Shown: positions 46,527-61,563 of the stretch, one piece after another | Position numbering within the stretch: the first letter of the stretch is position 1 | Layout of the letters: the number at the start of each line of letters is the position of its first letter | Source of the DNA: Methylobacterium sp. | GTDB taxonomy: Bacteria > Pseudomonadota > Alphaproteobacteria > Rhizobiales > Beijerinckiaceae | Assembly (NCBI GenBank): GCA_013823325.1 | Contig: PNLY01000011.1 | Span: 26,810-90,809, forward strand | Reading direction: 5' to 3' | Length of the DNA: 64,000 nt | Made by a program: the position numbers and the translations under genes | Notes under the pieces: generated by a model | Seen by the model: only the letters and a program-made list of their open reading frames with translations | The model's database searches: none | What the model was told of the DNA's origin: nothing

Positions 46527-46725
46527 TTGAATACTGAAAACGGTTTTTTTGTTTCGTTTTGAAAGAAGCGCAGGGTCGGTGGTCGCGCCTGGCGCGTCCT
46601 CCCTCCTTCGCCATCCCAGGCAGTCCGCGACGCTTCGCGGCCGGCCAAATCGCCCGACAACCGGCCGATCGAGCCCGATCGGACCGATAACGAAAGCGGG
46701 GGACATCCCCGCAAGGGAGGATGAG

Positions 46726-47661
46726 ATGAAGCGTTTTCTCGCAGGGATGATTGCTGCTGCCGCCATCGCGGTTGCAGGGGCGACGCCGAGCGTCGCGCAG
46801 CAGACCAGGATCATCGTCGTCAGCCATGGCCAGGCCGCGGACCCGTTCTGGTCGGTGGTCAAGAACGGCGTCGCCAAGGCGGCCGCCGACCTCAAGGTCT
46901 CCGTCGACTACCGCGCGCCCGAGACCTTCGACATGGTGGCGATGAGCCAATTGATCGACGCCGCGGTGAACCAGAAGCCGGCCGGCCTCGTCGTCTCGAT
47001 TCCCGACGCCTCGGCGCTCGGCCCCTCGATCCAGAAGGCGGTCGCCGCCGGCATCCCGGTGATCTCGATGAACTCCGGCTCCGACGTCTCGAAGAAACTC
47101 GGCGCCCTTCTTCATGTCGGCCAGGACGAGTTCGATGCCGGCAAGGCTGCCGGCGAGAAGCTCGCCAGCATGGGCGGCAAGGTCGGTGTCTGCGTCAACC
47201 ACGAGGTCGGCAATGTCGCGCTCGATCTGCGCTGCAAGGGTTTTGCCGAGGGCTTCAAGGGCAAGGTCACGACCCTGCCGGTCTCGAACGATCCATCCGA
47301 GATCCGCTCTAAGGTCAAGGCGGCGCTCTCCGATGCCAGCGTCGATACGGTGATGGCGCTGAGCGCCTCGCTCGGCGGCGAGCCGACCCTGGCGGGCGTC
47401 AAGGAGGCCGGCAAGATCGCCAGCGTCCGCGTCGCCACCTTCGATCTCTCCGCCAATTTCCTCAAGGCGATCGTGGCGGGCGAAGCGGCCTTCGGCATCG
47501 ACCAGCAGCAGTTCCTGCAGGGCTATCTGCCGGTCGCTTTCCTGGCGCTGAATGCCGAGTACGGCCTCGTCCCCGGCGGCAATGTCCCCTCCGGCCCGAA
47601 CCTCGTCACCAAGGAGAAGGCGGCCCAGGTCGTCGACCTCTCGGCCAAGGGCATCCGCTGA
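46726..47661 (+). CDS. Sugar-type ABC substrate-binding protein (RbsB-like)
   Basis: A 311-residue periplasmic binding protein of the Peripla_BP_4 type. The signal peptide is MKRFLAGMIAAAAIAVAGATPSVA, cleaved before QQTRIIVVSHGQ. The mature domain has the RbsB-like run of SHGQAADPFWSVVKNG, AVNQKPAGLVVSIPD and VISMNSGSD. GGGAGG lies about eight bases before the ATG. It heads an operon with permease and ATPase genes. The cluster reads as a ribose- or nucleoside-type importer, but the ligand is not determinable; family members also bind autoinducer-2, polyols and purine nucleosides. Confidence 0.9.
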   Translation: MKRFLAGMIAAAAIAVAGATPSVAQQTRIIVVSHGQAADPFWSVVKNGVAKAAADLKVSVDYRAPETFDMVAMSQLIDAAVNQKPAGLVVSIPDASALGPSIQKAVAAGIPVISMNSGSDVSKKLGALLHVGQDEFDAGKAAGEKLASMGGKVGVCVNHEVGNVALDLRCKGFAEGFKGKVTTLPVSNDPSEIRSKVKAALSDASVDTVMALSASLGGEPTLAGVKEAGKIASVRVATFDLSANFLKAIVAGEAAFGIDQQQFLQGYLPVAFLALNAEYGLVPGGNVPSGPNLVTKEKAAQVVDLSAKGIR

Positions 47662-47730
47662 GCGCTCCGCGGCGGTGCGCCCAGCACCGCCGCTCCCTCT
47701 ACGGACGTTCACAAGCTCAGGAGGCGCGCC

Positions 47731-48879
47731 ATGACGACCTCGACCGCCGATCTCGCCGCGGGTGCGTCCCGTCCCATTGACCCGGCCGCAGAGGCCCGTG
47801 ACGAGCGCCTGCGCCGCGTCTCGCTGATAGCCCGGCTGATGCGCCGGCCTGAATTGGGGGCGGTCGCCGGCCTCGTCCTGGTCACCGTCTTCTTTGGGCT
47901 CACCGCCAATCCGGCGATGTTCACCCTCGCCGGCCTGATGACCGTGCTCTCGCCGGCGGCGCAGCTCGGCATCCTCGCCATCGCGGCGGCGCTGCTGATG
48001 ATCGGCGGCGAGTTCGACCTCTCGATCGGCTCGATGATCGCCTTTTCCGGCCTCGTCTTCGGTGCGCTGATCGTGGTCGGCGACCTGCCGCTGCTGGCGG
48101 CGATCGTCGCGACCTTCGTCTTCGCCGGCCTGATGGGCGCGGTGAACGGGCAGATCGTCATCAGGACGCGCCTGCCCTCCTTCATCGTCACCCTCGCCTT
48201 TCTCTTCATCCTGCGCGGGCTCTCGCTGGTCGGGCTGAAATGGACGACCGGCGGCTCGACGCAGTTGCGCGGCATCGGCGACAAGGCAGGGCAAGGCGTC
48301 GTGCGCGAGCTCTTCTCCGGCCAGGCGCTGGAGGGGCTGTTCGCCTGGCTGGCGCAGGCCAACCTGATCGCCAAATTTCCGAACGGCACGCCGACCGTGA
48401 CCGGCGTCCCCGTTGGGGTGCTCTGGTTCCTCGCCATCGCGGCGCTTGCGACCTATGTCCTGCTGCGCACCCGCTTCGGCAACTGGATCTTCGCCGCCGG
48501 CGGGGACCCCAATGCGGCCCGCAATTCCGGCGTCCCCGTGAACATGGTCAAGACAACCCTGTTCGTGCTGACCGCCTGCGCCGCCACCCTCGTCGCCATC
48601 CTGACAGTGCTCGACGCCGGCTCGACCGATGCCCGCCGCGGCTTCCAGAAGGAGTTCGAGGCGATCATCGCCGCGGTGATCGGCGGTTGCCTGCTCACCG
48701 GTGGCTATGGCTCGGCGATCGGCGCCTTCTTCGGCGCGATCATCTTCGGCATGGTCTCGATCGGCCTGACCTATACCAGCTTCGACAGCGACTGGTTCCA
48801 GGTCTTTCTCGGCGGCATGCTGCTGCTCGCCGTGCTGTTCAACAACTTCATCCGCCGCAAGGCGACAGGGGAGCGCTGA
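47731..48879 (+). CDS. Sugar-type ABC transporter permease (RbsC-like)
   Basis: A 382-residue BPD_transp_2 permease with 8-10 helices. Characteristic stretches are [22 protein letters not shown] (the RbsC-type motif), [20 protein letters not shown] and [23 protein letters not shown] precedes the ATG. The N-terminus carries about 40 polar residues before the first helix. It lies between the binding-protein and ATPase genes; the ATPase starts two bases after its stop. Confidence 0.91.
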
Positions 48880-48881
48880 GC

Positions 48882-49676
<795 letters not shown>

Positions 49677-49726: not shown

Positions 49727-50839
49727 ATGCGCGCGCTCGGCGTCGGCCTGATCGGCACCGGCTATATGGGCAAATGCCATGCGCTGGCCTGGAACGCCGT
49801 CGCGCCGGTCTTCGGCGACGTGCCCCGTCCCAGGCTCGCCGTGCTCTGCGAGGTCGACGAAGCCCTGGCGGCGCAGCGCGCCGGCGAGTTCGGTTTCGCT
49901 GAATCGACGGCCGACTGGCAGGCCCTCATCGCCCATCCCGACGTCGACGTCGTCTCGATCACCACGCCCAACGCCTTCCATGCGCAGATGGCGATCGCGG
50001 CGCTCAAGGCCGGCAAGCATGTCTGGTGCGAGAAGCCGATGGCGACCAGCCTCGGCGATGCAGAGGCGATGCTGGCGGCGGCGAAGGCCGCCGGCGCGGT
50101 CGCCGCCCTCGGCTACAACTACATCCAGAACCCGGCGATCCGGCTGGCCAAGCGCTTGATTGCGGATGGTGCGATCGGTTCGGTCAACCATGTCCGCGTC
50201 GAGATGGACGAGGATTTCATGGCTGACGCCGCTTTGCTCTTCTCCTGGAAGAGCGAAGCGGCGTCCGGCCATGGCGCGCTTGACGATTTCGGCGTCCACG
50301 CCTTCTCGCTGATCAAGGTCCTGGTCGGCGAGGTCGAAGCGGTCATGGCCGATATGGCCAGGCCCTATGCCGAGCGCCCGCTCACTGCCGGTGGCAGCCG
50401 CGCGGTCGAGACCCACGATATCGCGACCTTGCTGCTGCGCCTGTCGTCCGGCGCCTCCGGGCTCGTCGCGCTCAACCGCTCGGCCTGGGGCCGCAAGGGC
50501 CGGATCGCCCTGCAGGTCTTCGGCGCGAAGGGCACGATCGCCTATGATCAGGAGCGGATGAACGAGATCGAGCTCTACACGGCCGAGGGTGCTGCTGACG
50601 TCCAGGGCTTCCGCCGCATCCTGACCGCTCCGGCACACGAGCCTTATGGCCGCTTCATCCCGGCGCCCGGCCACGGCCTCGGCTTCAACGAGCTCAAGAT
50701 CATCGAATGCCGCGAATTGCTGCGGGCGATCGCCAGCGAGCCGGCGCATCTCCTCGATTTCGAAGCGGGCCTACGCATCGAGCGCACGGTCGATGCCGCG
50801 GCCCGGAGTTTCCGCGAGGGACGCTGGACGACGATCTGA
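49727..50839 (+). CDS. Gfo/Idh/MocA family NAD(P)-dependent oxidoreductase
   Basis: A 370-residue dehydrogenase. The Rossmann motif GLIGTGYMGKCHALAW is near residues 7-22, followed by the signature CEKPMATSLGDAEAM with catalytic-type Lys, and a C-terminal alpha/beta domain with GHGALDDFGVHAFSLI, where Asp and His fit the substrate site. The family oxidises or reduces sugars, inositols and their derivatives. The ATG at 49727 follows GGAG; a TTG two codons upstream is less likely. It follows the ABC transporter genes after 50 bases and probably processes the imported compound. Confidence 0.88.
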   Translation: MRALGVGLIGTGYMGKCHALAWNAVAPVFGDVPRPRLAVLCEVDEALAAQRAGEFGFAESTADWQALIAHPDVDVVSITTPNAFHAQMAIAALKAGKHVWCEKPMATSLGDAEAMLAAAKAAGAVAALGYNYIQNPAIRLAKRLIADGAIGSVNHVRVEMDEDFMADAALLFSWKSEAASGHGALDDFGVHAFSLIKVLVGEVEAVMADMARPYAERPLTAGGSRAVETHDIATLLLRLSSGASGLVALNRSAWGRKGRIALQVFGAKGTIAYDQERMNEIELYTAEGAADVQGFRRILTAPAHEPYGRFIPAPGHGLGFNELKIIECRELLRAIASEPAHLLDFEAGLRIERTVDAAARSFREGRWTTI

Positions 50840-50951: not shown

Positions 50952-51407
50952 ATGGCGCGACCGAGCACTGCGGCCGAGACGCCCGAACCCGCCGACGAGA
51001 ACTACGATCTCGCCGAGCAGGTCGGCTTCATCATGCGCCAGGCGGCGCAGCGCCATGTCTCGATCTTCAATGAGATCATGGGCAGCGACCTGACCCCGAC
51101 GCAATGGGCGGTGCTGGCGCGGCTCTACCAGGACGGCGGCTCCTCGCAGAACCTGCTGGGCCGCCAGACCGCCATGGACGCCGCCACGATCAAGGGCGTG
51201 GTCGACCGCCTGCTCAAGCGCAAGCTGGTCCAGACCAAGCCCGATCCGGAGGATGGCCGCCGGCTCATCGTCGAGCTCAGCCCGGCCGGCATCGACTATA
51301 CCCGCGAGCTCCTGCCCAAGGCTGAGACGGTCACCAAGGTGACGCTGGCGCCGCTCGCGACCAACCAGCGCGCGACGCTGGTCGCGCTGCTGAAGCAGTT
51401 GCGCTGA
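50952..51407 (+). CDS. MarR family transcriptional regulator
   Basis: A 151-residue winged-helix regulator. The DNA-binding core runs from LTPTQWAVLARLYQDG through TAMDAATIKGVVDRLLKRKLV to the wing PDPEDGRRLIVELSPAG. The ATG at 50952 lies directly after a perfect palindrome, so the protein probably represses itself. Similar palindromes flank nadC and the 6-hydroxynicotinate reductase gene, making it the likely local regulator of that divergent cluster. MarR ligands are often aromatic acids or urate-like heterocycles; a pyridine or purine-like ligand would fit the neighbourhood (inference). Confidence 0.89.
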   Translation: MARPSTAAETPEPADENYDLAEQVGFIMRQAAQRHVSIFNEIMGSDLTPTQWAVLARLYQDGGSSQNLLGRQTAMDAATIKGVVDRLLKRKLVQTKPDPEDGRRLIVELSPAGIDYTRELLPKAETVTKVTLAPLATNQRATLVALLKQLR

Positions 51408-51417
51408 GGCGCTGCCG

Positions 51418-53460
51418 CTAACTGATTACGTAGCAGTCGCAGCTATCCGCCATCGCCTTCGCCTCGTCGAGATCGCTCGAGGCGCTGGCGTGGATGGCGA
51501 AGAGCGGATCGCCCACCGCGACGCGATCGCCGACATGGCGCCGCAGGTCGATGCCGGCCGCCTTGTCGAAGGGCGCGCCTGCCCGCCGCGCGATCCCGGC
51601 GACGGCCCAGCCGTCGATCTCGGTGACGACCCCCGCCTTGGGCGAGCGCACGGTATGGACCAGCAGGGCCGGCGCGACCGGCGGCTCGCGCCGGCCCTGC
51701 GCATCGATGATCCGCTCGAAGGCGGCCCGCGCCGCGCCGGAGCGCAGCAATTCTTCAGCCCGCTCTCGCCCGGCCGCGACCGAGCCGAGCGCCGGGTCCC
51801 AGGCCAGGATGCGGCTGGCGAAGAACAGTGCCTTCTCGACGAGATCAGCCGGCGCCTGCGGGTCGTTGTCGAGCACCCAGCCGACATCGCGGCATTCCAG
51901 CGCCGGGCCGATGCCACGCCCGATCGGGCGGCTGCCATCGGTCGGGAAGGCGTTGACGACGAGGCCGAGCCCGGCGCCCACCGTCTCGAACAGTTGCGCC
52001 AGCTCGGCGGCTTCGGCCTCGCTCTTCAGCTTGGCGCGCGGGCCATAGGGCAGGTCGACGATGACATGGGTCGAGCCCGCTGTGAGCTTCTTCGACAGGA
52101 TCGAGGCGACCGACCAGCGATTGGAATCGATGCCGAGCGGCCGCGTGATCGCATTCATCACGTCGTCGACGACGGAATGGTTCAATCGTCCATTCCAGGC
52201 GATGCAGCCGCGCGCCTTTTCCACGCAGGCGCGCAGTTCGGCCGGGTTGAGCTCGACGCGGGCGAGCGCCTCCATTGCATCGGCCGTACCCGCCGCCGAG
52301 GTGATGGCGCGCGACGAGGTTTTGGGCATCAGGAAGGCGCCATGCGCCGCGACGATCGGCACCACGATCAGCGTGATCCGGCTGCCGGGGATGCCGCCCA
52401 TCGAATGCTTGTCGACGACGATCCTGTCGGGCCAGGTGATTGTCTGCGCGAAGCGGGTGCGCACCCGCGCCAACGCGATGACCTCGTCGTCGGAGAGCTT
52501 CTGCGTCGCCGCGACAAGGAAAGCCGCGACCTCGCCATCGGGATAACGCGCTTCGACGATGTCACGGATCAGCGTGTGGTACTGCTCTTCGGTGAGTTCG
52601 CCGCCCTGGATCTTGCGGGTCAGCGCCGCCCGGCTTTCGGGCGAAGGCGTGCGCCGGATCGTGACCTCGCTGCCCTCAGGCAGGCCGAGCTCGTCAAAAG
52701 CCTCGGCGGACAAGCCGATCTCGTCGCCGGCGAGCAGGGCGGGAGAGTCGACGACCTGTACATCCGAGCGGATGCTGGCCGTCGTCCCTGAAATCTCGAT
52801 CCGGCCCGGCCCGAGATAGTCGAAGCCGTTGACGATCTCGCCTCTGGCCGGGAGATAGGCGCAATGCGCCCGTCCCGCGAACAGCGGCAGGCGGCGCAGG
52901 CGCATCGTATTGGCGGCGGCCTCGACCGCAGCGACGAAGCGCTCGATGCCGATCTCGACGCTCTGATCGTTGCAGACCGTCGTAGCCCTGATCCCCTCCG
53001 GGCGTGGCTCTACCGTGCGCGACAGGCGCTTCTCGATGGCTTCGCCGCTCTCGCGGCCGCGCCCGGCGATGCGGGCGGCGAGCACCTCGGGCGGAGCCGT
53101 GACCTCGACCACGACGAAGCGCGGCAGGCGGGCAGCGAGCGCCGCGATCGTGGCGCGCGAGCCGTTGGCGATGACGTTGCGGCCGGCCTCGACCTGGCGC
53201 TTCAGCTCGGCCGGCAGCCCATAGCGCAGGCCATGGGCGCCCCAGGTGATGAGGAAGTCGCCTTTGGCCTCGCGGGCGTCGAAGGCCTCGTCCGTCGCGG
53301 CCTCGTGATCCTCGCCCGGCGACCCCGCCGGACGGGTGACCACGCGCCGCGCGAAGACATAGCGGCCCGTCGGCTCCAGCAAGGCGCGGGCGCCGTCGAT
53401 CAGCGAGTCCTTGCCGGCTCCGCTCGGGCCGACGACGAGGAAGAAGGTACCTTGCCGCAT
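51418..53460 (-). CDS. Fusion: ribose 1,5-bisphosphokinase (PhnN-like) with AMP/thymidine phosphorylase-like enzyme
   Basis: A 680-residue fusion. Residues 1-185 resemble PhnN, which makes PRPP from ribose 1,5-bisphosphate and ATP: P-loop GPSGAGKDSL at 11-20, then FARRVVTRPAGSPGEDHEA. Residues about 187-680 resemble archaeal-type AMP phosphorylase, which turns a nucleoside 5'-monophosphate and phosphate into base and ribose 1,5-bisphosphate: an N-terminal small domain (AHCAYLPARGEIV...), then VVDKHSMGGIPGSR at about 349-361 and MPKTSSRAITSAAGTADAME, the wording of AMP phosphorylases rather than of thymidine phosphorylase. One product is the substrate of the other half, so the fusion could recharge phosphoribose. 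It ends near the convergent marR and follows nadC after 19 bases. Confidence 0.88.
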   Translation of the reverse strand: MRQGTFFLVVGPSGAGKDSLIDGARALLEPTGRYVFARRVVTRPAGSPGEDHEAATDEAFDAREAKGDFLITWGAHGLRYGLPAELKRQVEAGRNVIANGSRATIAALAARLPRFVVVEVTAPPEVLAARIAGRGRESGEAIEKRLSRTVEPRPEGIRATTVCNDQSVEIGIERFVAAVEAAANTMRLRRLPLFAGRAHCAYLPARGEIVNGFDYLGPGRIEISGTTASIRSDVQVVDSPALLAGDEIGLSAEAFDELGLPEGSEVTIRRTPSPESRAALTRKIQGGELTEEQYHTLIRDIVEARYPDGEVAAFLVAATQKLSDDEVIALARVRTRFAQTITWPDRIVVDKHSMGGIPGSRITLIVVPIVAAHGAFLMPKTSSRAITSAAGTADAMEALARVELNPAELRACVEKARGCIAWNGRLNHSVVDDVMNAITRPLGIDSNRWSVASILSKKLTAGSTHVIVDLPYGPRAKLKSEAEAAELAQLFETVGAGLGLVVNAFPTDGSRPIGRGIGPALECRDVGWVLDNDPQAPADLVEKALFFASRILAWDPALGSVAAGRERAEELLRSGAARAAFERIIDAQGRREPPVAPALLVHTVRSPKAGVVTEIDGWAVAGIARRAGAPFDKAAGIDLRRHVGDRVAVGDPLFAIHASASSDLDEAKAMADSCDCYVIS

Positions 53461-53479
53461 TCCCTGGCCGCAGTCCTGC

Positions 53480-54313
53480 TCAGGCTTCGTCGAGGCCGAT
53501 ATCCACCGCCGGCGCCGACTGGGTGATCTTGCTGGTCGAGATGTAATCGACGCCGGTCCTGGAGATCGGGCCGATCGTGTCGATATTGATGCCGCCGGAG
53601 GCCTCGACCTTGGCGCGGCCGGCGATCAGCTCGACCGCCTTGGTCATGTCGGCGACCGACATGTTGTCGAGCATGATCACGTCGGCGCCGGCCTTGGCGG
53701 CCTCCTCGACCTGCTCCAGCCGGTCGCATTCGACCTCGAGCTTGGTCAGCACCGGCAGCTTCTTGCGGGCGCGCTCGACGGCGGCGGTGATGCTGCCGCA
53801 GACGGCGATGTGGTTGTCCTTGATCATCACGCCGTTGTCGAGGCCGAGGCGATGGTTGAGGCCGCCGCCGCAGGTCACCGCGTGCTTCTCCATCATGCGC
53901 AGGCCCGGCGTGGTCTTGCGGGTGTCGATCAGGCGCGCCTTGCTGCCGGCCATGGCGGCGGCGTAGCGGGCGGTCTCGTTGGCGATGCCGGAGAGGCGCT
54001 GGGCGATGTTGAGCGCGGTGCGCTCGGCGGTGAGCACGCTGCGGGCCGAGCCTTCGATCTCGACCAGGATCGCGCCCTTCTCGACCTTGTCGCCATCCTT
54101 GACGCGCAGGGTCACCTTGAGATCGGGGTCGTAGCGCTTAAACACGCGGGCGGCGACCTCGACGCCGGCGACGATCATCGGCTCGCGGGCGTTCATGTGG
54201 AACTTGCCGGTCTCCTCGGGCTCGATCATCACCTGGACGGTGAGGTCGCAGGCGCCGATGTCTTCGACAAGCCAGTGGTCGATCAGGCGGTCCGTAGCGA
54301 AGACGTCATACAT
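53480..54313 (-). CDS. Nicotinate-nucleotide pyrophosphorylase (carboxylating) family, NadC-like
   Basis: A 277-residue type II phosphoribosyltransferase. NadC converts quinolinate and PRPP to nicotinate mononucleotide, CO2 and pyrophosphate. The active-site run is intact: DTRKTTPGLR at 130-139, KHAVTCGGGLNHRLGL and MIKDNHIA near 163-170. The ATG at 54313 gives the family length. It lacks nadA/nadB beside it, and heads an operon with the phosphoribose-recycling fusion under a MarR-type palindrome, so a catabolic copy is more likely than the biosynthetic one. ModD-type relatives are an alternative. The substrate may be quinolinate or another pyridine carboxylate. Confidence 0.88.
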   Translation of the reverse strand: MYDVFATDRLIDHWLVEDIGACDLTVQVMIEPEETGKFHMNAREPMIVAGVEVAARVFKRYDPDLKVTLRVKDGDKVEKGAILVEIEGSARSVLTAERTALNIAQRLSGIANETARYAAAMAGSKARLIDTRKTTPGLRMMEKHAVTCGGGLNHRLGLDNGVMIKDNHIAVCGSITAAVERARKKLPVLTKLEVECDRLEQVEEAAKAGADVIMLDNMSVADMTKAVELIAGRAKVEASGGINIDTIGPISRTGVDYISTSKITQSAPAVDIGLDEA

Positions 54314-54352
54314 GGCAGGGCCCTCTCTCCCGCGGCGATGCCGCTCCAAACA

Positions 54353-54368
54353 TGTTTGTATGCAAACA
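54353..54368. promoter_or_regulatory. MarR-type palindrome before nadC (operator 2)
   Basis: TGTTTG-TATG-CAAACA, six-base perfect arms. It overlaps the -10 and start region of the nadC promoter, the right place for repression, and shares its TATG core with operator 3. Confidence 0.65.
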
Positions 54369-54395
54369 ATAGCAGCGGGAAAATTTGGCTGTCAA
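54366..54395 (-). promoter_or_regulatory. Probable sigma-70-type promoter of nadC
   Basis: On the minus strand TTGACA (54395-54390), 18 bases, TATTGT (54371-54366). The -10 overlaps operator 2 and the leader would be roughly 45 bases. Confidence 0.5.
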
Positions 54396-54485
54396 TGCGC
54401 CATTGATGCCGTGCTTGCAATCGGCAATCGCGTCATGCGGAGGTCATCTCCGCCGGGTAGAAACCTTGCCCGGCGGCGCTATAAA

Positions 54486-54505
54486 CAATCTTGTATGCAA
54501 GATTG
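54486..54505. promoter_or_regulatory. MarR-type palindrome between the divergent operons (operator 3)
   Basis: CAATCTTG-TATG-CAAGATTG, eight-base perfect arms around the TATG core. It is midway in the 391-base gap between nadC and the reductase gene and could allow looping or cooperative binding. The gap carries no gene I can support. Confidence 0.6.
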
Positions 54506-54654
54506 CGCGCCGGCACTTCTCTTTCACCGACGAATCGGCACGGGCTCGGCCACGATGGCCGGGCCCGTGGGCCAATCCGGATATCGGGCGTAGAGTAGGC
54601 GCCGTCCCGCGCCTCGCCGCTGTCTTGACTTGCTCCAAGAGGCGCGCCAGTATC

Positions 54655-54668
54655 GTTTGTACACAAAC
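54655..54668. promoter_or_regulatory. MarR-type palindrome before the reductase gene (operator 4)
   Basis: GTTTGT-AC-ACAAAC, six-base arms, ending 36 bases before the reductase start codon. TTGACT at 54625-54630 is a possible -35, so the site would cover the -10/+1 region. Confidence 0.6.
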
Positions 54669-54704
54669 AAAATCCCTAAGGCCCGCTCTGCGGGAGGATC
54701 AAGC

Positions 54705-56189
54705 ATGGCGCTGGACGAAGCGAGCCCGGTTGCGGACGACAAGATCCGCTGCGATGCCTGCCCGGTGATGTGCTTCATCAAGCCGGGCGCCGTCGGCGCC
54801 TGCGACCGCTACGGCAATGTCGACGGCGAGCTGGTGCGGATGGAGCCGCATATCGTGCTCGAGCGCACGCTGGAGCATGGCGGCGAGGTCGTTCCCTTCG
54901 CCGGCAGTCGCGAATGGGAAGGCGAAATCGTCCACCAGCAGGGCACCTTCATCACCGCGATCGGCGCCGGCACCACCTATCCCGACTACAAGCCCGCCCC
55001 GTTCATCGTCTCGTCCGAGGTCGACGGCGTCGACATGGTCACCGTCGTGACCGAGGGCATCTTCAGCTATTGCGGCGTCAAGGTGAAGATCGACACCGAC
55101 CGCTTCCTCGGCCCCGAGCAGGCGACGGTACGGGTCGAGGGCGAGGCGATCGGCCACGTCACCACCGGCGAATACGGCTCGCAGATGCTCTCGCTCGGCG
55201 GCGTCCACCATCTCACCGGCGGCTCGAAGAAGGAGGGGCGCGTCACCTGCGACGCGCTGCTCCAGCTCAGCAACGGCAAGGCGGTCGAGCTCAGCATCGA
55301 CGAGGGCGAGACGGTGATCGTCCAGGCCGGCAAGCCGCCGATCGTCAACGGCATCCAGGAAAGCCGGATGCGCGTCGGCTGCGGCTCGGCGACGATCGGC
55401 ATCTTCGCCAAGCAATGGCATGGCAAGGTCGACGAGGTCGTCGTCGTCGACGACCACATCACCGGCGTGCTCTCCGAGCACCAGGCCGGCAAGCTGCTCG
55501 GCATGGCCGGCACCGGCATCAAGATGAAGGGCCGGCGCTCGACGCCCGGCCGCTATTTCCAGGTGGCGCAGCCCGGCACCGGCTGGGGCGGCACCAATAT
55601 CAGCGACCCCCTGACCATTCTCGGGCCGTTCGACCCGAAGGTCGCCTATCCCGGCCTGCGCCTGCTGATGGTTTCGACCACCGGCGAGCACGCCGCCTAT
55701 TACGAGCTCGACGAGCACCTCGTTCCGGTCGAGATGCAGATGCCGCAGCCGCTGGTCGAGCCGGTCGAGCGTATCGCCGAGAATTGCGAGCCGGCGCTCT
55801 CCACCGTGCTGTTCATCGGCGGCGCCGGCGGCTCGCTGCGCGCCGGCGTCACCGAGAATCCGGTCCGCCTGACCCGCTCGGTCAAGGATGCGCTGACCTA
55901 TGTCACCTGCGGCGGCGCCCCGGTCTATATCTGGCCGGGCGGCGGCATCACCTTCATGGTCGACGTCACCCGCCTGCCCGAGAACGCCTTCGGCTATGTG
56001 CCGACGCCGGCTTTGGTCGCGCCGCTCGAATTCACCATGAGCCGCAGCGACTACGAGGCGCTCGGCGGCCATATGGACGCGATCCAGCCGCTGGCTTCGC
56101 TCAAGGGCGGCAGTCGCCTGCGCCTGCCGCAGCGCCCCGACAATCCCTGGCCGCTGGCGCCGGAGCAGCCGCGCCGCTCCCTCGGCTAG
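54705..56189 (+). CDS. 6-hydroxynicotinate reductase family protein
   Basis: A 494-residue protein of the family named after Eubacterium barkeri 6-hydroxynicotinate reductase, which uses reduced ferredoxin to saturate the ring to 1,4,5,6-tetrahydro-6-oxonicotinate. The N-terminal Cys cluster C16-x2-C19-x3-C23-x9-C33 (IRCDACPVMCFIKPGAVGAC) should hold an iron-sulfur cluster. Glycine-rich stretches such as FIGGAGGSLRAGV and CGGAPVYIWPGGGI follow. No signal peptide. GGGAGGA precedes the ATG. It opens an operon with UPF0280 and two DUF1185 genes, opposite nadC. The real substrate may be another oxidised N-heterocycle. No nicotinate dehydrogenase or enamidase gene is nearby. Confidence 0.82.
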   Translation: MALDEASPVADDKIRCDACPVMCFIKPGAVGACDRYGNVDGELVRMEPHIVLERTLEHGGEVVPFAGSREWEGEIVHQQGTFITAIGAGTTYPDYKPAPFIVSSEVDGVDMVTVVTEGIFSYCGVKVKIDTDRFLGPEQATVRVEGEAIGHVTTGEYGSQMLSLGGVHHLTGGSKKEGRVTCDALLQLSNGKAVELSIDEGETVIVQAGKPPIVNGIQESRMRVGCGSATIGIFAKQWHGKVDEVVVVDDHITGVLSEHQAGKLLGMAGTGIKMKGRRSTPGRYFQVAQPGTGWGGTNISDPLTILGPFDPKVAYPGLRLLMVSTTGEHAAYYELDEHLVPVEMQMPQPLVEPVERIAENCEPALSTVLFIGGAGGSLRAGVTENPVRLTRSVKDALTYVTCGGAPVYIWPGGGITFMVDVTRLPENAFGYVPTPALVAPLEFTMSRSDYEALGGHMDAIQPLASLKGGSRLRLPQRPDNPWPLAPEQPRRSLG

Positions 56190-56193
56190 GGCG

Positions 56194-57081
56194 ATGTGGG
56201 AGAAGCCCTCCGCGCGGATTCTGCCGGATGGCCGGCGCCTGCTGCTGCAGCAGGGGCCGATCGATCTCGTCATCGAGGCCGTCGGCGAGCAAAGCGCGGT
56301 CAAGGTCGCGCATGAGGCGGCGATTCTCCGCTTCGACGGCCTGCTCGCCGAACTCTGCGACGAGTTGCAGCTGCTGCGGACGGCTGTGAGCCGGACGAGC
56401 CCGTTGCCGCTCGGCCCGGTCGCCCGGCGCATGCATGCGGCGGTAGCTCCCTTCGCTGAGACAAGCTTCATCACGCCGATGGCCGCCGTCGCCGGTTCGG
56501 TGGCGCAGGAGATTCTCGGCGTGATGTGCGCGGCCGCGCCGCTGCAGCGCGCCTATGTCAATAATGGTGGCGACATCGCCCTGCATCTCGCAGCCGGCGA
56601 GCAGTTCCGCATCGGGCTGGTGAAGCGCCCCGACCGGCCGGAGTTCTTCGCCACGGCGACGATCCGGCCCGAGGACGGCGTCGCCGGCATCGCGACCTCG
56701 GGCTATCCCGGCCGCAGCTTCTCGCTGGGGATTGCCGAGGCCGTGACGGTGCTGGCGCCCACCGCCGCGATGGCCGACGCCGCCGCGACCGTGATCGCCA
56801 ATGCGATCGATCTGCCCGGCCATCCCGCGGTCGAGCGCCTGCCGGCCAATTCCATCCAGAGCGACACCGATCTCGGCGAGCGGCTGGTGACCCGCGACGT
56901 CGGCCCGCTGGCAACGGACGAGATCGAAACCGCGCTCGCTGCCGGTCTAGCCGAGGCGGAATCCTTACGCACCGCAGGCCTGATCGTCTCGGCCGCCATG
57001 CATCTTCAGGGCGTGAGCCGCACGCTCGCCAGCCCTATGATCGTTCAAGAAAAGCCTGAGAGGAGACTGGCTCGTGCCTGA
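56194..57081 (+). CDS. UPF0280 family protein, ApbE-like fold
   Basis: A 295-residue protein of the UPF0280 family, structurally grouped with ApbE. The central stretch AGSVAQEILGVM followed by RAYVNNGGDIALHL matches the ApbE-type nucleotide-binding region with GGD. ApbE transfers FMN from FAD to a Thr of its target; whether UPF0280 does so is not established. It starts five bases after the reductase stop and overlaps the first DUF1185 start, so it probably serves the reductase, e.g. in flavin attachment (inference). I could not find a canonical ApbE target motif in the reductase. Confidence 0.82.
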   Translation: MWEKPSARILPDGRRLLLQQGPIDLVIEAVGEQSAVKVAHEAAILRFDGLLAELCDELQLLRTAVSRTSPLPLGPVARRMHAAVAPFAETSFITPMAAVAGSVAQEILGVMCAAAPLQRAYVNNGGDIALHLAAGEQFRIGLVKRPDRPEFFATATIRPEDGVAGIATSGYPGRSFSLGIAEAVTVLAPTAAMADAAATVIANAIDLPGHPAVERLPANSIQSDTDLGERLVTRDVGPLATDEIETALAAGLAEAESLRTAGLIVSAAMHLQGVSRTLASPMIVQEKPERRLARA

Positions 57082-57658
57082 GATCGCCGTGCGAAAATAC
57101 GCCGTGACCGTCGAGGAAATTTTCCATGAGGGCGGCCCGGCCGCTGCGGTGCCGCTGAAGCGCGGTGCGGCGCTGGCCGTGATCGCCAACCCCTATGCCG
57201 GCCGCTATGTCGAGGACATCCAGGGCTTCATGGACGACCTCAAGCCCTTCGGCCTCGCCATGGCGCAGCGCTTGCTCGCCGCGATGGGCGGCGATGCCCA
57301 GGCGATCCAGGGCTATGGCAAGGGCGCCATTGTCGGCGCTGCCGGCGAGCTCGAGCACGGAGCGCTCTGGCATGTGCCGGGCGGCTACGCCATGCGCGAA
57401 TTGCTGGGCGACGCCAAGGCGATCGTGCCCTCGACCAAGAAGGTCGGCGGCCCCGGCACGCGGCTCGACATCCCGGTCACCCATGTGAATGCGTCTTACG
57501 TGCGGAGCCATTTCGACTCTTTCGAGATCGGCATCACCGACGCGCCCCGGGCCGACGAACTGCTGTTCGCGCTGGTGATGACCACCGGGCCGCGCATCCA
57601 TGCCCGTGTTGGCGGCCTCAAGGCCAGCGAGATCAAGGGCGAGGACGGCCTGCGATGA
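57074..57658 (+). CDS. DUF1185 (amino acid synthesis family) protein, copy 1
   Basis: A 194-residue protein of PF06684, whose solved members have a Bacillus chorismate mutase-like fold and no proven reaction. GTG start at 57074, overlapping the UPF0280 stop by eight bases. Landmarks shared with copy 2 are VIANPYAGRY, QGYGKGAIVG, GELEHGA, YVRSHFDSFE and the final GEDGLR. These conserved Gly, Lys and acidic residues probably line an active site. The constant pairing with 6-hydroxynicotinate reductase-type genes suggests action on the reduced or opened ring. Confidence 0.84.
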   Translation: MPEIAVRKYAVTVEEIFHEGGPAAAVPLKRGAALAVIANPYAGRYVEDIQGFMDDLKPFGLAMAQRLLAAMGGDAQAIQGYGKGAIVGAAGELEHGALWHVPGGYAMRELLGDAKAIVPSTKKVGGPGTRLDIPVTHVNASYVRSHFDSFEIGITDAPRADELLFALVMTTGPRIHARVGGLKASEIKGEDGLR

Positions 57659-58239
57659 AAGCCAGGATCCGCAAGATCGTCACCGTCCTCGACGAGACCC
57701 ATAGCGAGCTCGGCCGGCCCGTCTCGCCGCCGATCAAGCGCGCTGCCGCCGTCGCGGTGATCGCCAATCCCTTCGCGGGACAATATCAGGACGATCTTTC
57801 CGAGCTGATCGACATCGGCGAGGAGCTCGGCGACCTGCTCGGCCGCCATGCGCTGGCGGCGCTCGGCATCGCGGGCGACGCGGTCCAGGGCTATGGCAAG
57901 GCCGCCGCCGTCGGCGAGGACGGCGAGCTGGAGCATGCCGCCGCGATCCTGCACCCCAAGCTCGGCGCCCCCCTGCGCAAGCTGCTCGGCAAGGCGCCGG
58001 CGCTGATCCCGTCCTCGAAGAAGCGCGGCTCGCTCGGCGTCGTGCTCGACGTGCCGCTCGGCCACAAGGCGGCGGCCTATGTCCGCAGCCATTTCGACGG
58101 CATGGAAGTGCGCATTCCCGATGCGCCGCGCGCCGGCGAGATCGTCGTCGCGGTCGCCCTGACCAGCGGTGGCCGGCCCTTGCCGCGCGTCGGCGGGCTC
58201 ACCCATGCCGAGGCCAAGGGCGAGGACGGGTTGCGCTGA
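57655..58239 (+). CDS. DUF1185 (amino acid synthesis family) protein, copy 2
   Basis: A second 194-residue PF06684 protein, in tandem with the first (ATGA overlap). It shares VIANPFAGQY, VQGYGKAAAVG, GELEHAA, YVRSHFDGME and GEDGLR, but differs in much of the rest (for example the 80-110 and 140-160 regions), so it is an old duplicate and not a recent copy. Equal length and coupling suggest a heteromeric complex or two successive steps. It ends 27 bases before the convergent transporter ATPase gene. Confidence 0.84.
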   Translation: MKARIRKIVTVLDETHSELGRPVSPPIKRAAAVAVIANPFAGQYQDDLSELIDIGEELGDLLGRHALAALGIAGDAVQGYGKAAAVGEDGELEHAAAILHPKLGAPLRKLLGKAPALIPSSKKRGSLGVVLDVPLGHKAAAYVRSHFDGMEVRIPDAPRAGEIVVAVALTSGGRPLPRVGGLTHAEAKGEDGLR

Positions 58240-58265: not shown

Positions 58266-59045
58266 CTAGCTGCGTAGCGCGCCTGGTCCGGCCACCGCGC
58301 CGGGCGGGCATTTGCCGGAGATGATCATCCCCAGCACTTCGTCCTGCGTGACGTCGCGGACATGGGCGCTGCCGACGACCTTGCCGTTCTTCATCACGCT
58401 GACGCGGTCGGCGAGATCGAAGACATCGTGCAGGTCATGGCTGATCAGGAAGATGCCGATGCCCTGCTTCTTCAGTTCCAGGATGAGATCGGCGACCTGC
58501 TTGGTTTCTGCGGGCCCGAGCGCCGCCGTCGGCTCGTCCATGATCAGCACCCGGGCGTTGAAATAGATCGCGCGGGCGATCGCGACCGATTGGCGCTGGC
58601 CGCCGGAAAGCGCCTTCACCGGCTCCTTGAAGCGGCGGAAATGCGGGTTGAGCCGGCCCATCACCTTGCGCGTCTCGGCCTCCATGGCGCTGTCGTCGAG
58701 CGTGCCCCAGGCCGTCAGGAGCTCGCGGCCAAGGAAGATATTGGCGGCGGCGTCGACATTGTCCGCCAGAGCGAGCGTCTGGTAGATCGTCTCGATGCCA
58801 TGGCGCTTGGCGTCGCGGGGACTTGAGATCGCGACAGGCTCGCCGGCGATCCTGATCTCGCCGGCATCGGCGCGATAGGCCCCCGACAATATCTTGATCA
58901 GCGTCGACTTGCCGGCGCCGTTATGGCCGAGCAGGCCGACGACCTCGCCGGCATGGAGATCGACGCTGGCATGGTCGACCGCCTTGATGCCGCCGAAGGC
59001 GATCGAGATTTCGCGCATCTCGACGAGGGGCGTGGTCATGTCCAT
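58266..59045 (-). CDS. Sugar ABC transporter ATP-binding protein, single domain (XylG-like)
   Basis: A 259-residue ATPase with Walker [10 protein letters not shown] near 39-47, signature [14 protein letters not shown], Walker [13 protein letters not shown] and switch His in LISHDLHD. Like the other sugar ATPase here it is half the length of classical XylG. It is the last gene of a binding protein-permease-ATPase operon, but a 129-base palindromic repeat separates it from the permease and may change the amount of ATPase made. An in-frame ATG two codons later is also possible. Confidence 0.9.
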
Positions 59046-59062
59046 GGGCAGGCTCCTCCCTT

Positions 59063-59191
59063 GTCATTCCGGGTCGCCGCGCAGCGGTGAACCCGGAACC
59101 CACGACTGGGCGAGCGCAATCGACGGGGTCGTATTTGAGGGTTCATCCGGTCGTGGGTTCCGGGTTCTCGCTTTGCGAGCCCCGGAATGAC
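59063..59191. repeat. Palindromic repeat element, copy 2
   Basis: Outer arms GTCATTCCGGG (59063) and CCCCGGAATGAC (ending 59191); inner arms AACCCGGAACCCACGAC and its perfect 17-base complement. Same family as 36608-36751. It lies inside the transporter operon, between permease stop and ATPase start, where such stems can act as RNA processing or partial termination signals. Confidence 0.75.
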
Positions 59192-59216
59192 AGGGGAGTT
59201 TGCCGCGCTCATCCCG

Positions 59217-60521
59217 CTAACCCAGCCGCTTGCGATAGAGCCCGTCGAGCCAGACGGCGAGGACGAGCACGATGCCGACGACGATGTTCTGCAGGGGCGT
59301 ATCGACGCCGATCAGCACCATGCCCGATTGCAGCGACTGCATCACCAGGGCGCCCAGCATGGCGCCGGCGATAGTGCCGACGCCGCCGGCGAGCGACGTG
59401 CCGCCGATCACCGCCGCGGCGATGACATAGAGCTCGTCGAGCTGGCCGGCCGAATTGGTCGCGGCGTTGAGGCGGGCGGTCGAGATGCAGGCGGCGATGC
59501 CGACCAGCATGCCCATCAGCCCGTAGACCAGCATTAGAACCTTGCGCGTGTTGACGCCGGAGAGCTGGGCCGCCTCGGGATTGCCGCCGATCGAGAAGAC
59601 ATAGCGGCCGAAGCGCAGACGCCGCGCCAGGAAGCTCATGGCGACGCCGACCGCGAGCGCGAGCAGCACCGGCACGGCGAGGCCATGGCCGATGGTGAGT
59701 CCACCCTCGGGCCAGGTGCCGCCTTTCGCCTCGACGAGGCGGCGGGCGACGCCGGCCGGCAGGGCATAGGAATTGGCGATCGCGACCGCGCCGACGACGG
59801 TGCCGCAGGCAAGCGCCGCGAGCACGATCTCGGCCCAGAGCGGGCGCAGGGCGAAGCCGTAGCGCTTGCGCCGGCGCCGGGCGAAGGCGATCCCGGCGAC
59901 GATCAGCGCGCAGATGACGAGGCCGATTGCCCAGGAGGCGGAGGTGCCGATCGCGCCCTCGATGCCGCCGCCGAGCGGGCGGAAGCGCGAATCCATCGGC
60001 GCGATGGTCTGGCCCTGCGTCACCCACCAGGCTCCGCCGCGCCAGACCAGGAGGCCGCCGAGCGTGACGATGAAGGAGGGGATGGCGAGATAGGCGATCA
60101 GCGCGCCCTGGAACAGGCCGATCAGCCCGCCGAGCGCGACCGCTGCAAGGATCGAGAGCAGCCAGGTGGCGGGGTGCTCGAAGCCGAGCAGGCCGGGGAG
60201 CAATTGCGCCTGGACGAGGCCGGTGACCATGCCGACGAAGCCGAGCATCGAGCCGACCGAGAGGTCGATGTTGCGGGTGACGATGACCAGCACCATGCCG
60301 CAGGCCATCACTGCGACTGAGGCGGTCTGGACCGAGAGGTTCCAGAGATTGCGCGGCGTCAGGAAGGCGCCGCCCGAGAGCCAGTTGAAGCCGAGCCAGA
60401 TCACCGCCAGCGCGGCGATCATGCCGATCATCCGCGCGTCGAACTCGATGGCGCGCAGATGGTCGGCGAAGCTCTTCGCATCCTGCGACGGCGTTGCCGG
60501 CGCTGGCACGCTTTCAGTCAC
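59217..60521 (-). CDS. Sugar ABC transporter permease (XylH-like)
   Basis: A 434-residue permease with about 10-12 helices. The XylH/RbsC-type motif is [19 protein letters not shown], followed by [40 protein letters not shown] and [17 protein letters not shown]. The long polar N-terminus is typical of XylH. GTG at 60521 overlaps the binding-protein stop by eight bases and is preferred; a TTG at 60545 is possible. With the XylF-like binding protein it probably imports D-xylose or a related sugar. Confidence 0.9.
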
Positions 60522-61563
60522 AGGCTTTGACCTTGCCGGCGGCAACGCCCTGGCAGACCGCTGCTTTCGGCGCCCAGCCGGCTTCGATCACCACGTTAAG
60601 ATTGTCCTTGGTCACCGGCACCGGCTTCAGGAAGAGCGCGGTCATCTTGGCCTTGCTCGGGCCCTGGTCCCAGGCGGTGGAGCCTGCGACCTCGGTCAGC
60701 TTGGCGCCGCCGGCGAGCTTGATCGCGATCTCGGCGGCGTTGCGCCCGAGCTCGCGCGCATCCTTCCAGATCGTCACCGTCTGGGTGCCCAAGGCGACGC
60801 GGTTGAGGGCGGCGCGGTCGGCGTCCTGGCCGGAGACCGGCACCGAGCCGGCGAGGCCCTGCGCGGCGAGCGCCGCGATGGCGCCGCCGCCGGTGCCGTC
60901 ATTGGCGGCGATGACGGCGTCGACCTTGTTGGCGTTGCGCGTCAGGAACTGCTCCATGTTGCGCTGGGCGTTGGCCGGCAGCCAGCCATCGGTGTAGGCC
61001 TCGCCGACATTCTTGATCTTGCCGGCGTCGATCGCCGGTTTCAGCACCTCGATCGAGCCCTGGAACAGGAAGTTGGCGTTCGGATCCGAGCTCGAGCCCT
61101 TGATGAAGACGTAGTTGCCTTCCGGCTTCGCCTTCTGGATCTCGCGCGCCATCATCCGGCCGACCTCGACATTGTCGAAGGTCAGGTAGAAGGCCTGCGG
61201 AATCTCGATCAGCCGGTCATAGCCGACCACCGCGATACCCTCGTCGACCGCCTTCTGCACGGCCGGCCGGATCGCCTGCGCGTCCTGCGCCAGCACGATG
61301 ATCGCCTTGGCGCCGCGCGCGATCAGGCTCTCGACATCGGTGAGCTGTTTGGCGGGCGAAGATTGCGCATCGGCCGAGAGATAGGTGCCGCCGACCTTCT
61401 CGATCGCCGCCTTGATCGCGGCCTCGTCGGTCTTCCAGCGCTCTTCCTGGAAGTTCGACCAGCTCACCCCGATCACCGGCCCCTTGCTCTGGGCGAAAGC
61501 GGGGAATGCGCTGCCGAAGGCCGCGAGCGCGAGGCCCGCGGCGAGAAAATGGCGTCTCAACAC
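60514..61563 (-). CDS. D-xylose-type ABC substrate-binding protein (XylF-like)
   Basis: A 349-residue periplasmic protein. Signal peptide [24 protein letters not shown], then the XylF-type run [41 protein letters not shown] and [14 protein letters not shown]; later [20 protein letters not shown] and [11 protein letters not shown] are conserved in XylF. It is first in the operon, order xylF-xylH-xylG. No xylose isomerase or kinase gene is in the window. The ligand is likely D-xylose, but related pentoses or pentose-containing molecules cannot be excluded. The 190 bases upstream hold no gene. Confidence 0.9.

Follow-up and report, generated by a model that had tools for sequence, protein, structure and literature searches.

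A conserved pairing of nadC with a PhnN–phosphorylase fusion probably encodes conversion of quinolinate to nicotinate by a phosphoribosyl-carrier cycle

In the breakdown of phosphonates by C–P lyase the substrate carries a ribosyl handle, and PhnN closes the loop from ribose 1,5-bisphosphate (R15P) to 5-phosphoribosyl 1-pyrophosphate (PRPP). Quinolinate is known to be degraded by 6-hydroxylation, in which hydroxylation precedes decarboxylation and no PRPP is used, while the oxidative catabolism of nicotinate via 6-hydroxynicotinate is typified by the nic genes of Pseudomonas putida. Here we describe a module of two genes, nadC and a fusion of phnN to a nucleotide phosphorylase gene, in a 64,000-nucleotide stretch of a Methylobacterium sp. 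genome (the window). It would share its growth substrate with the 6-hydroxylation route, genes of the NicX type stand beside it in some relatives, and it differs from the C–P lyase system in its substrate and in its enzymes of transfer and cleavage.

Three further systems resemble the module in part. Quinolinate salvage in Bordetella (nadQ-nadC-bug69; Bug27 and Bug69) likewise combines NadC and a quinolinate-binding protein with incomplete de novo synthesis of nicotinamide adenine dinucleotide (NAD), but it is read as ending in NAD, and the portions of the report available to us name neither a phosphorylase nor nicotinate-degradation genes (PMC11452294). It also has a NadQ regulator, whereas the module has MarR genes nearby. 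The window cluster does not share this arrangement of NadQ beside nadC and no phosphorylase; its nadC has the fusion and a 6-hydroxynicotinate reductase-like gene (hnr) as neighbours, and a MarR gene follows the fusion. Reductive nicotinate catabolism (Eubacterium barkeri, Azorhizobium and strain SG-6C) shares hnr, a NicAB-like hydroxylase and an amidohydrolase with module loci (PMC3511419, in the part available). The known nicotinate pathways start at nicotinate, and the module would add an entry from quinolinate. Finally, the archaeal pentose bisphosphate pathway (TK0352, R15P isomerase and RuBisCO) has in common with the module a nucleoside monophosphate phosphorylase that yields R15P, the substrates of Thermococcus kodakarensis TK0352 being adenosine, cytidine and uridine monophosphates (AMP, CMP and UMP); that pathway sends R15P to ribulose 1,5-bisphosphate, whereas the module, with its different pocket, would return it to PRPP by the fused PhnN (PMC9700705, likewise in part).

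The host genome is 6.03 Mb in size and 95.5% complete. At this locus, the named relatives closest to it among the matches listed are strains of Bosea, and the fusion is 97% identical to that of Bosea sp. CRIB-10. The two genes of the module, nadC being the first and the gap between them 19 bp, are as follows:

53480-54313, minus strand: nadC, quinolinate phosphoribosyltransferase of the module clade (277 amino acids; TIGR00078, PF01729, PF02749; tree)
51418-53460, minus strand: PhnN–phosphorylase fusion, proposed nicotinate mononucleotide phosphorylase / ribose 1,5-bisphosphokinase (680 amino acids; profiles, pocket signature, tree)

We consider it probable that the products of these genes run a cycle, with a phosphoribosyl group as the carrier, by which quinolinate becomes nicotinate that is then catabolized. 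By the chemistry of its family, NadC would convert quinolinate and PRPP into nicotinate mononucleotide (NaMN), carbon dioxide and pyrophosphate. A cationic ring nitrogen permits C2 decarboxylation in NadC chemistry, and it is likely that N-ribosylation makes the ring nitrogen cationic, with the C2 carboxylate then lost as carbon dioxide. The phosphorylase half would split NaMN with phosphate into nicotinate and R15P, and the PhnN half, by its family activity, would use adenosine triphosphate (ATP) to return R15P to PRPP. The net reaction would be quinolinate + ATP + phosphate giving nicotinate + carbon dioxide + adenosine diphosphate + pyrophosphate, with PRPP recycled as a cofactor. Judging from the genes present, NicAB would convert nicotinate to 6-hydroxynicotinate, and Hnr would here reduce this product ahead of ring opening; the nic pathway, which is oxidative, would take over in some relatives. 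Since quinolinate catabolism would spend one PRPP per molecule, it would stall unless the phosphoribosyl group were recovered, and the fusion would recover it in two steps. The NAD pathway, in contrast, needs little PRPP and should not require a generator dedicated to it. From the adjacency of the genes, the fusion, its pocket and this flux logic we infer phosphorolysis of NaMN by the phosphorylase half, and we likewise infer the physiological flux and direction of the cycle.

An earlier note on this DNA had described a NadC-like gene followed by a PhnN–phosphorylase fusion, both divergent from an hnr-like gene, and had proposed the PRPP-recycling loop from them. All three genes are confirmed at the place given. 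The loop is supported, at the level of sequence, by the conservation of the pair, the transporter genes around it (a Bug27 relative among them), the linkage to two nicotinate pathways, the second NadC that many hosts have and the distinct pocket.

To survey the pair, a profile built from four fusions was compared with genome contigs, and the best 80 loci in named genomes were all examined; they include near-duplicates (e.g. L138/L140 and L113/L115). Counts of gene families are lower bounds, since the gene caller was crude, missing genes in several loci and calling none in L041; tblastn matches were added to its calls for nadC, the fusion, hnr, UPF0280 and AA_synth only. The pairing goes beyond what chance would give: nadC lies upstream of the fusion, on the same strand and within 500 bp, at 73 of the 80 loci, and hnr is found in the flanks of 19. 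The aligned ends of nadC and fusion are 4–68 bp apart in 68 of the 73. The pair spans alpha-, beta- and gammaproteobacteria, its hosts including Bosea, Bradyrhizobium, Rhodoplanes, Azorhizobium, Jiella, Roseovarius, Acetobacter, Variovorax, Comamonas, Herbaspirillum, Caballeronia and Pseudomonas. The seven exceptions are two loci with the fusion close to a contig edge (L089 and L124), one with nadC about 1 kb upstream, past a MarR gene (L096), and four with no nadC in view (L118, L121, L129 and L133). As a control, no nadC was found by tblastn in the flanks (about 1.5 kb) of 14 stand-alone phosphorylase loci (L012–L025), nor in the gene calls of the wider contexts L041–L051, where the caller missed genes.

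The NadC tree intermixes alpha-, beta- and gammaproteobacteria and some module copies are plasmid-borne, as might be the case if a mobile catabolic island simply carried nadC and the fusion along without a joint pathway. Against such hitch-hiking stand the shared strand and the spacing of 4–68 bp between aligned ends, kept in 68 of the 80 loci despite widely different flanks, and we regard it as extremely improbable.

The two halves of the fusion are encoded by a single open reading frame (ORF) in 73 of the 80 loci. At L106, L109, L114 and L116, phnN and the phosphorylase gene are two ORFs in the same order, overlapping by 4 bp and lying behind nadC; this arrangement is an unfused form of the same gene set. 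The phosphorylase lacks a PhnN half at three loci; at two of them, L127 and L128, it is still immediately preceded by nadC. These PhnN-less enzymes (L118:10115-11494, L127:3681-5177 and L128:9980-11476) belong to the fused group; that of L118 lies among nicA, nicB, a CoA-transferase and a Bug-type binding protein. Stand-alone phosphorylases, a set separate from the module, adjoin a beta-CASP metallo-beta-lactamase-fold protein at L043, L044, L047 and L060, and the first three also have a ribose-phosphate pyrophosphokinase-like gene.

The NadC of the window scores 326.8 bits against TIGR00078 (cut-off 198.4) and has both Pfam domains of quinolinate phosphoribosyltransferases (PF01729 and PF02749). 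Residues R99, R133, K134, H155, R156, K166, E196 and D217, which we take to bind quinolinate and PRPP, are identical in 78 of 78 module NadCs, while three ModD-like copies deviate from them at R99, K166 and D217. In a tree that combines the window with 72 of the 80 loci and five further ones, set against 16 other NadCs and three ModD-like proteins, the 78 module NadCs form one clade (support 99/99) on a long stem, separate from the other NadCs of the same genomes. The NadC of L193, which is not adjacent to a fusion, is the sole extra member of this clade; that of G042 (60% identity) was left out of the tree. Identity to the window NadC is 39–48% for other NadCs, 74% for L193 and about 30% for the ModD-like copies. 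A NadC match was present in 157 of 385 genomes sampled from the class, and the 30 best were examined for a fusion in their 1.5-kb flanks. Four, our own included, have one, all with at least 57% identity; one NadC at 60% (G042) and all 25 at 55% or less do not.

Residues 4–179 of the fusion correspond to PhnN (TIGR02322, 188.4 bits; cut-off 156) and residues 186–678 to the archaeal-type phosphorylase group (TIGR02645, 459.3 bits against a cut-off of 434.6; NF003338, 601.3 against 434). The AMP-phosphorylase equivalog TIGR03327, in contrast, is below its cut-off (385.9 vs 535). The nearest solved relative of the phosphorylase half is the T. kodakarensis phosphorylase 4ga5 (E = 2e-79). Positions aligned with K84, H85, S86, S113, T123, R171, S186 and K190 of Escherichia coli DeoA (thymidine phosphorylase), residues that presumably serve catalysis and base binding, are each retained in 71–74 of 74 module rows, and the window fusion has all eight. 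Neighbouring positions set the module apart. Glu439 is present in 15 of 15 stand-alone enzymes and in that of T. kodakarensis, and is replaced by Thr, Asn or Val in all 74 module fusions; by alignment, these have R425 in 72, H428 in 73, and N436 and N423 in 74 of the 74 rows. With an acid lost and basic residues gained, such a pocket would be expected to suit an anionic base, for example nicotinate.

The fused halves also form one group of 83 rows in the phosphorylase tree, built by a quick method without bootstrap, apart from the 15 stand-alone bacterial enzymes and the archaeal enzyme. Alignment and tree cover 70 of the 80 loci, the ten left out (L106, L109, L114, L116, L118, L127, L128, L129, L133 and L134) having a called protein of 600 amino acids or less. 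The 74 module rows are 67 of the 70 loci plus the window, L003–L005 and L057–L059; L089, L121 and L124 were labelled as having no nadC seen and so are not module rows. The set holds duplicates (L005 and L108 are identical; L138/L140).

In the window, the genes and sites around the pair are:

54314-54704, no strand: divergent intergenic region with candidate operator inverted repeats at 54539-54569 and 54486-54505
54705-56189, plus strand: hnr, 6-hydroxynicotinate reductase-like (66–70% identity to plasmid genes)
56194-57081, plus strand: UPF0280 family gene (NF003322, 390.7 bits; cut-off 290)
57074-57658, plus strand: AA_synth copy 1, GTG start (PF06684 from residue 6)
57655-58239, plus strand: AA_synth copy 2 (PF06684)
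50952-51407, plus strand: MarR family regulator (Pfam; frame open from GTG 50871)

Here hnr heads a plus-strand operon with the UPF0280 gene and the two AA_synth genes, ending at 58239 and divergent from nadC and the fusion. It takes its name from its matches to plasmid genes; of the 15 listed, 7 bear the annotation 6-hydroxynicotinate reductase, and the remainder are 'hypothetical', unannotated or without a feature. Its product had no match in Pfam or NCBIfam. The frame is open from a TTG at 54630, and database matches start at residues 17–38 of this longer frame. The reductive cluster was described as a nicotinate cluster, with an Hnr homologue 42% identical to that of E. barkeri, and two conserved unknown proteins in the available part of that description may be the UPF0280 and AA_synth proteins (PMC3511419). 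AA_synth (PF06684) genes lie near the module in 15 of the 80 loci, the window having the tandem pair at 57074-58239.

Among the 80 loci, 31 are flanked by nicotinate-catabolism genes, counted as hnr, nicA/nicB-like genes (at 17 loci), a xanthine-dehydrogenase-like hydroxylase or UPF0280. In the NicB-like protein, molybdopterin domains precede cytochrome c domains. At L115 (Herbaspirillum) and L103 (Comamonas), nicBA stands next to the module, as does a nic operon; this encodes an alpha/beta hydrolase, an isochorismatase-like protein and relatives of two known enzymes, 2,5-dihydroxypyridine dioxygenase and maleate isomerase. The dioxygenase name appears in 2 of 8 listed plasmid rows and that of maleate isomerase in 1 of 6, the others having no feature name. 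The names NicA, NicB, NicC, NicD and NicF follow those of the P. putida cluster and were assigned on protein family and size. As judged by gene content, the module is next to a predicted reductive pathway in some lineages and a predicted oxidative one in others. Since the two downstream pathways share only their entry at nicotinate and 6-hydroxynicotinate, we count linkage to both as support for nicotinate as the product.

Hydroxylation of the freed pyridine would not call for unknown enzymes, NicA/NicB-like genes being present both in this genome and in the module clusters of relatives. In our genome the genes for NicA and NicB are found together on a different contig (C123) and are 92–93% identical to the module-cluster copies of two other Boseaceae (L063 and L067). 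An amidohydrolase on contig C110 is 71% identical to one beside the module in L078 and would supply the enamidase step. Elsewhere in the flanks of the 80 loci there are amidohydrolase genes at 8, ferredoxin-reductase genes at 7 and succinate-glutarate CoA-transferase-like genes at 7.

Transporter genes provide a further clue. At 54 of the 80 loci the flanks, taken to at most 10 kb, encode solute-binding proteins; these are of three unrelated kinds belonging to TRAP, ABC and tricarboxylate-type systems: TAXI at 23 loci, SsuA/NMT1-like at 24 and Bug/TctC at 8, one locus having two kinds. On a plasmid of Variovorax SRS16 a Bug protein adjoins the module, and its best match in the PDB is Bug27 (2qpq, 457 bits). 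According to the available part of a study in Bordetella, Bug27 and Bug69 bind quinolinate with a Kd of about 0.1 uM and prefer it at least 40-fold over nicotinate and nicotinamide (PMC11452294).

As for regulation, MarR-family genes are near the module at 33 of the 80 loci and Lrp genes at 10; NadQ was not searched for. The MarR gene of the window lies on the far side of the module, beyond the fusion, and likely controls it. A gene for an FRG-domain protein, two members of which were checked against Pfam, lies near the module in 16 loci (L065, L079, L081, L087, L091, L098, L100, L103, L105, L113, L115, L118, L119, L122, L126 and L137), in several of them divergent from nadC.

A number of observations weigh against the proposed cycle. 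As many as 49 of the 80 loci have no nicotinate-catabolism gene in the available flanks, and the window cluster is without a conserved quinolinate-type transporter, the adjoining ABC systems being of sugar type. R425 is not exclusive to the module, since Arg also occurs at this position in 1 of the 15 stand-alone enzymes, and His in 6. The pocket positions themselves were placed by alignment, the sole structure model, made from a four-row alignment, being poor (predicted local distance difference test score 60.6) and left unused. The remaining points concern NAD supply and fusions without NadC, and these bear directly on two further explanations.

The main rival explanation is salvage of quinolinate for NAD, in which NadC makes NaMN from imported quinolinate and the fusion only supplies PRPP, its phosphorylase half splitting ordinary nucleotides (AMP, CMP, UMP) with phosphate and its PhnN kinase completing the conversion. 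This is close to the reading in print for Variovorax, where bug27 beside nadC and phnN was noticed and a role in NAD metabolism was proposed, PRPP coming from PhnN; the main text of that paper nowhere uses the word phosphorylase (PMC11452294). In the window genome the module nadC is the only nadC, which suits salvage. A profile search detected no NadA in this 95.5% complete genome, in which a gene could be missed, and no NadB above the cut-off, the best match to the NadB profile scoring as succinate dehydrogenase (SdhA). The window NadC would then have no endogenous quinolinate from the aspartate route, and we reject de novo NAD synthesis as its role. The earlier note had held that the loop would fall if this proved to be the only, biosynthetic, nadC of the genome: it is indeed the only one, but not part of a de novo pathway. 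The genome also encodes the nicotinate phosphoribosyltransferase PncB, and on this basis can make NAD from nicotinate, a point against salvage from quinolinate.

Across 30 of the 80 genomes, hand-chosen for spread, NadA was found in 16 and not seen in 14, the latter again as salvage would have it. A NadC outside the module clade is present, however, in 11 of the 16 NadA-bearing genomes (three Pseudomonas, two Variovorax, two Cupriavidus, Herbaspirillum, Labrenzia, Caballeronia and Burkholderia) and is no more than about 3 kb away from nadA in 8 of the 11. One of these genomes is C. basilensis OR16, where the fusion starts 431 bp short of the end of a contig and the nadC that belongs to it is not in view. 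The other five are less easily accommodated. Besides the module NadC, the NadA-bearing Xanthobacter agilis, Azorhizobium doebereinerae and Limibaculum have only ModD-like copies or none, and G126, a single-contig genome with NadA, likewise has the module NadC alone; in all four the module NadC must therefore serve NAD synthesis too. In CAVE-383, which bears NadA, both NadCs are of the module clade. The fifth, Pseudomonas baltica, has NadA and one ordinary NadC, with a fusion that lacks an adjacent nadC. Taking into account as well the nicotinate-degradation genes at 31 loci, the MarR or Lrp type of the regulator genes seen nearby, a pocket unlike that of AMP-type phosphorylases and an NAD demand too small to need a dedicated PRPP generator, we judge salvage for NAD to be unlikely.

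Fusions without NadC raise a different explanation, namely that the fusion acts in breakdown of a nucleotide with an unusual base, or in turnover of NaMN or nicotinamide mononucleotide from NAD, recovering PRPP and nicotinate from pyridine nucleotides in surplus, with NadC as a side entry. Within the order of the window, 10 of 297 sampled genomes have a full-length fusion match. In four of these (G000, G226, G126 and G072) nadC adjoins the fusion, while the other six have no PF01729 match genome-wide and hence no NadC. All six belong to one genus, which also includes the nadC-linked G226. Their fusions (L035 and L037–L040, in G206, G100, G245, G159 and G064, and L036, on a short contig of G183) adjoin cytochrome bc1 genes, and the genomes lack NadA as well. 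P. baltica and Pseudomonas sp. 286 (L129 and L133) have a fusion without an adjacent nadC, and the PhnN-less phosphorylase of L118 lies near nicAB with no nadC in view. The six NadC-less fusions share R425, H428 and N436, as nucleotide breakdown would allow, but in the quick-method tree they are nested among NadC-linked fusions, so that loss of nadC is the simpler account and may be what happened. With nadC adjacent in 73 of the 80 loci, and a transporter context that points to an imported organic acid, this explanation seems to us quite improbable, and the carrier cycle remains the reading that we prefer.

Two sugar-type ABC transporters flank the window cluster, one at 46606-49676 with a rhizopine-type binding protein, followed by a levoglucosan dehydrogenase-like gene (49727-50839), and another at 58266-61563 whose XylF-type binding protein scores above the cut-off. 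We considered them as conserved parts of the module and rejected them: neither is present in L063, L064 or L068, the first accompanying the module in L061, L062 and L067 and the second in L061 only. Nor were C–P lyase genes, which would suggest a phosphonate operon as the setting of PhnN, seen among the neighbours with families looked up; no dedicated search for them was made.

A literature search, in which subscription journals were thinly covered, found no description of NaMN phosphorolysis or of a PRPP-recycling route for quinolinate. Catabolism by a ribosyl handle and the nicotinate pathways are already known; as far as searched, the combination of the parts and the catalytic use of PRPP are new. 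More broadly, we lean towards the view that a widespread route, carried between lineages by horizontal transfer, feeds quinolinate into either nicotinate pathway and uses PRPP as a genuinely catalytic cofactor, NadC and a dedicated nicotinate-nucleotide phosphorylase joined to PhnN making up a cycle of decarboxylation that regenerates itself.

Quinolinate is an excitotoxin to neuroscience and mainly an NAD precursor to microbiology. If correct, the proposed cycle would provide a gene-level route for bacterial growth on quinolinate and an undescribed way of using it, in which PRPP, normally spent in biosynthesis, would serve catabolism as an activating group that is recycled. No enzymes dedicated to the phosphorolysis of a pyridine nucleotide are known so far, and the fused phosphorylases would be the first; many genes now labelled nadC, phnN or 'thymidine phosphorylase' would have to be re-annotated. 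The salvage-type and catabolic forms of nadC would become separable, a distinction that would be needed in any gut-microbiome study that counts nadC as quinolinate degradation.

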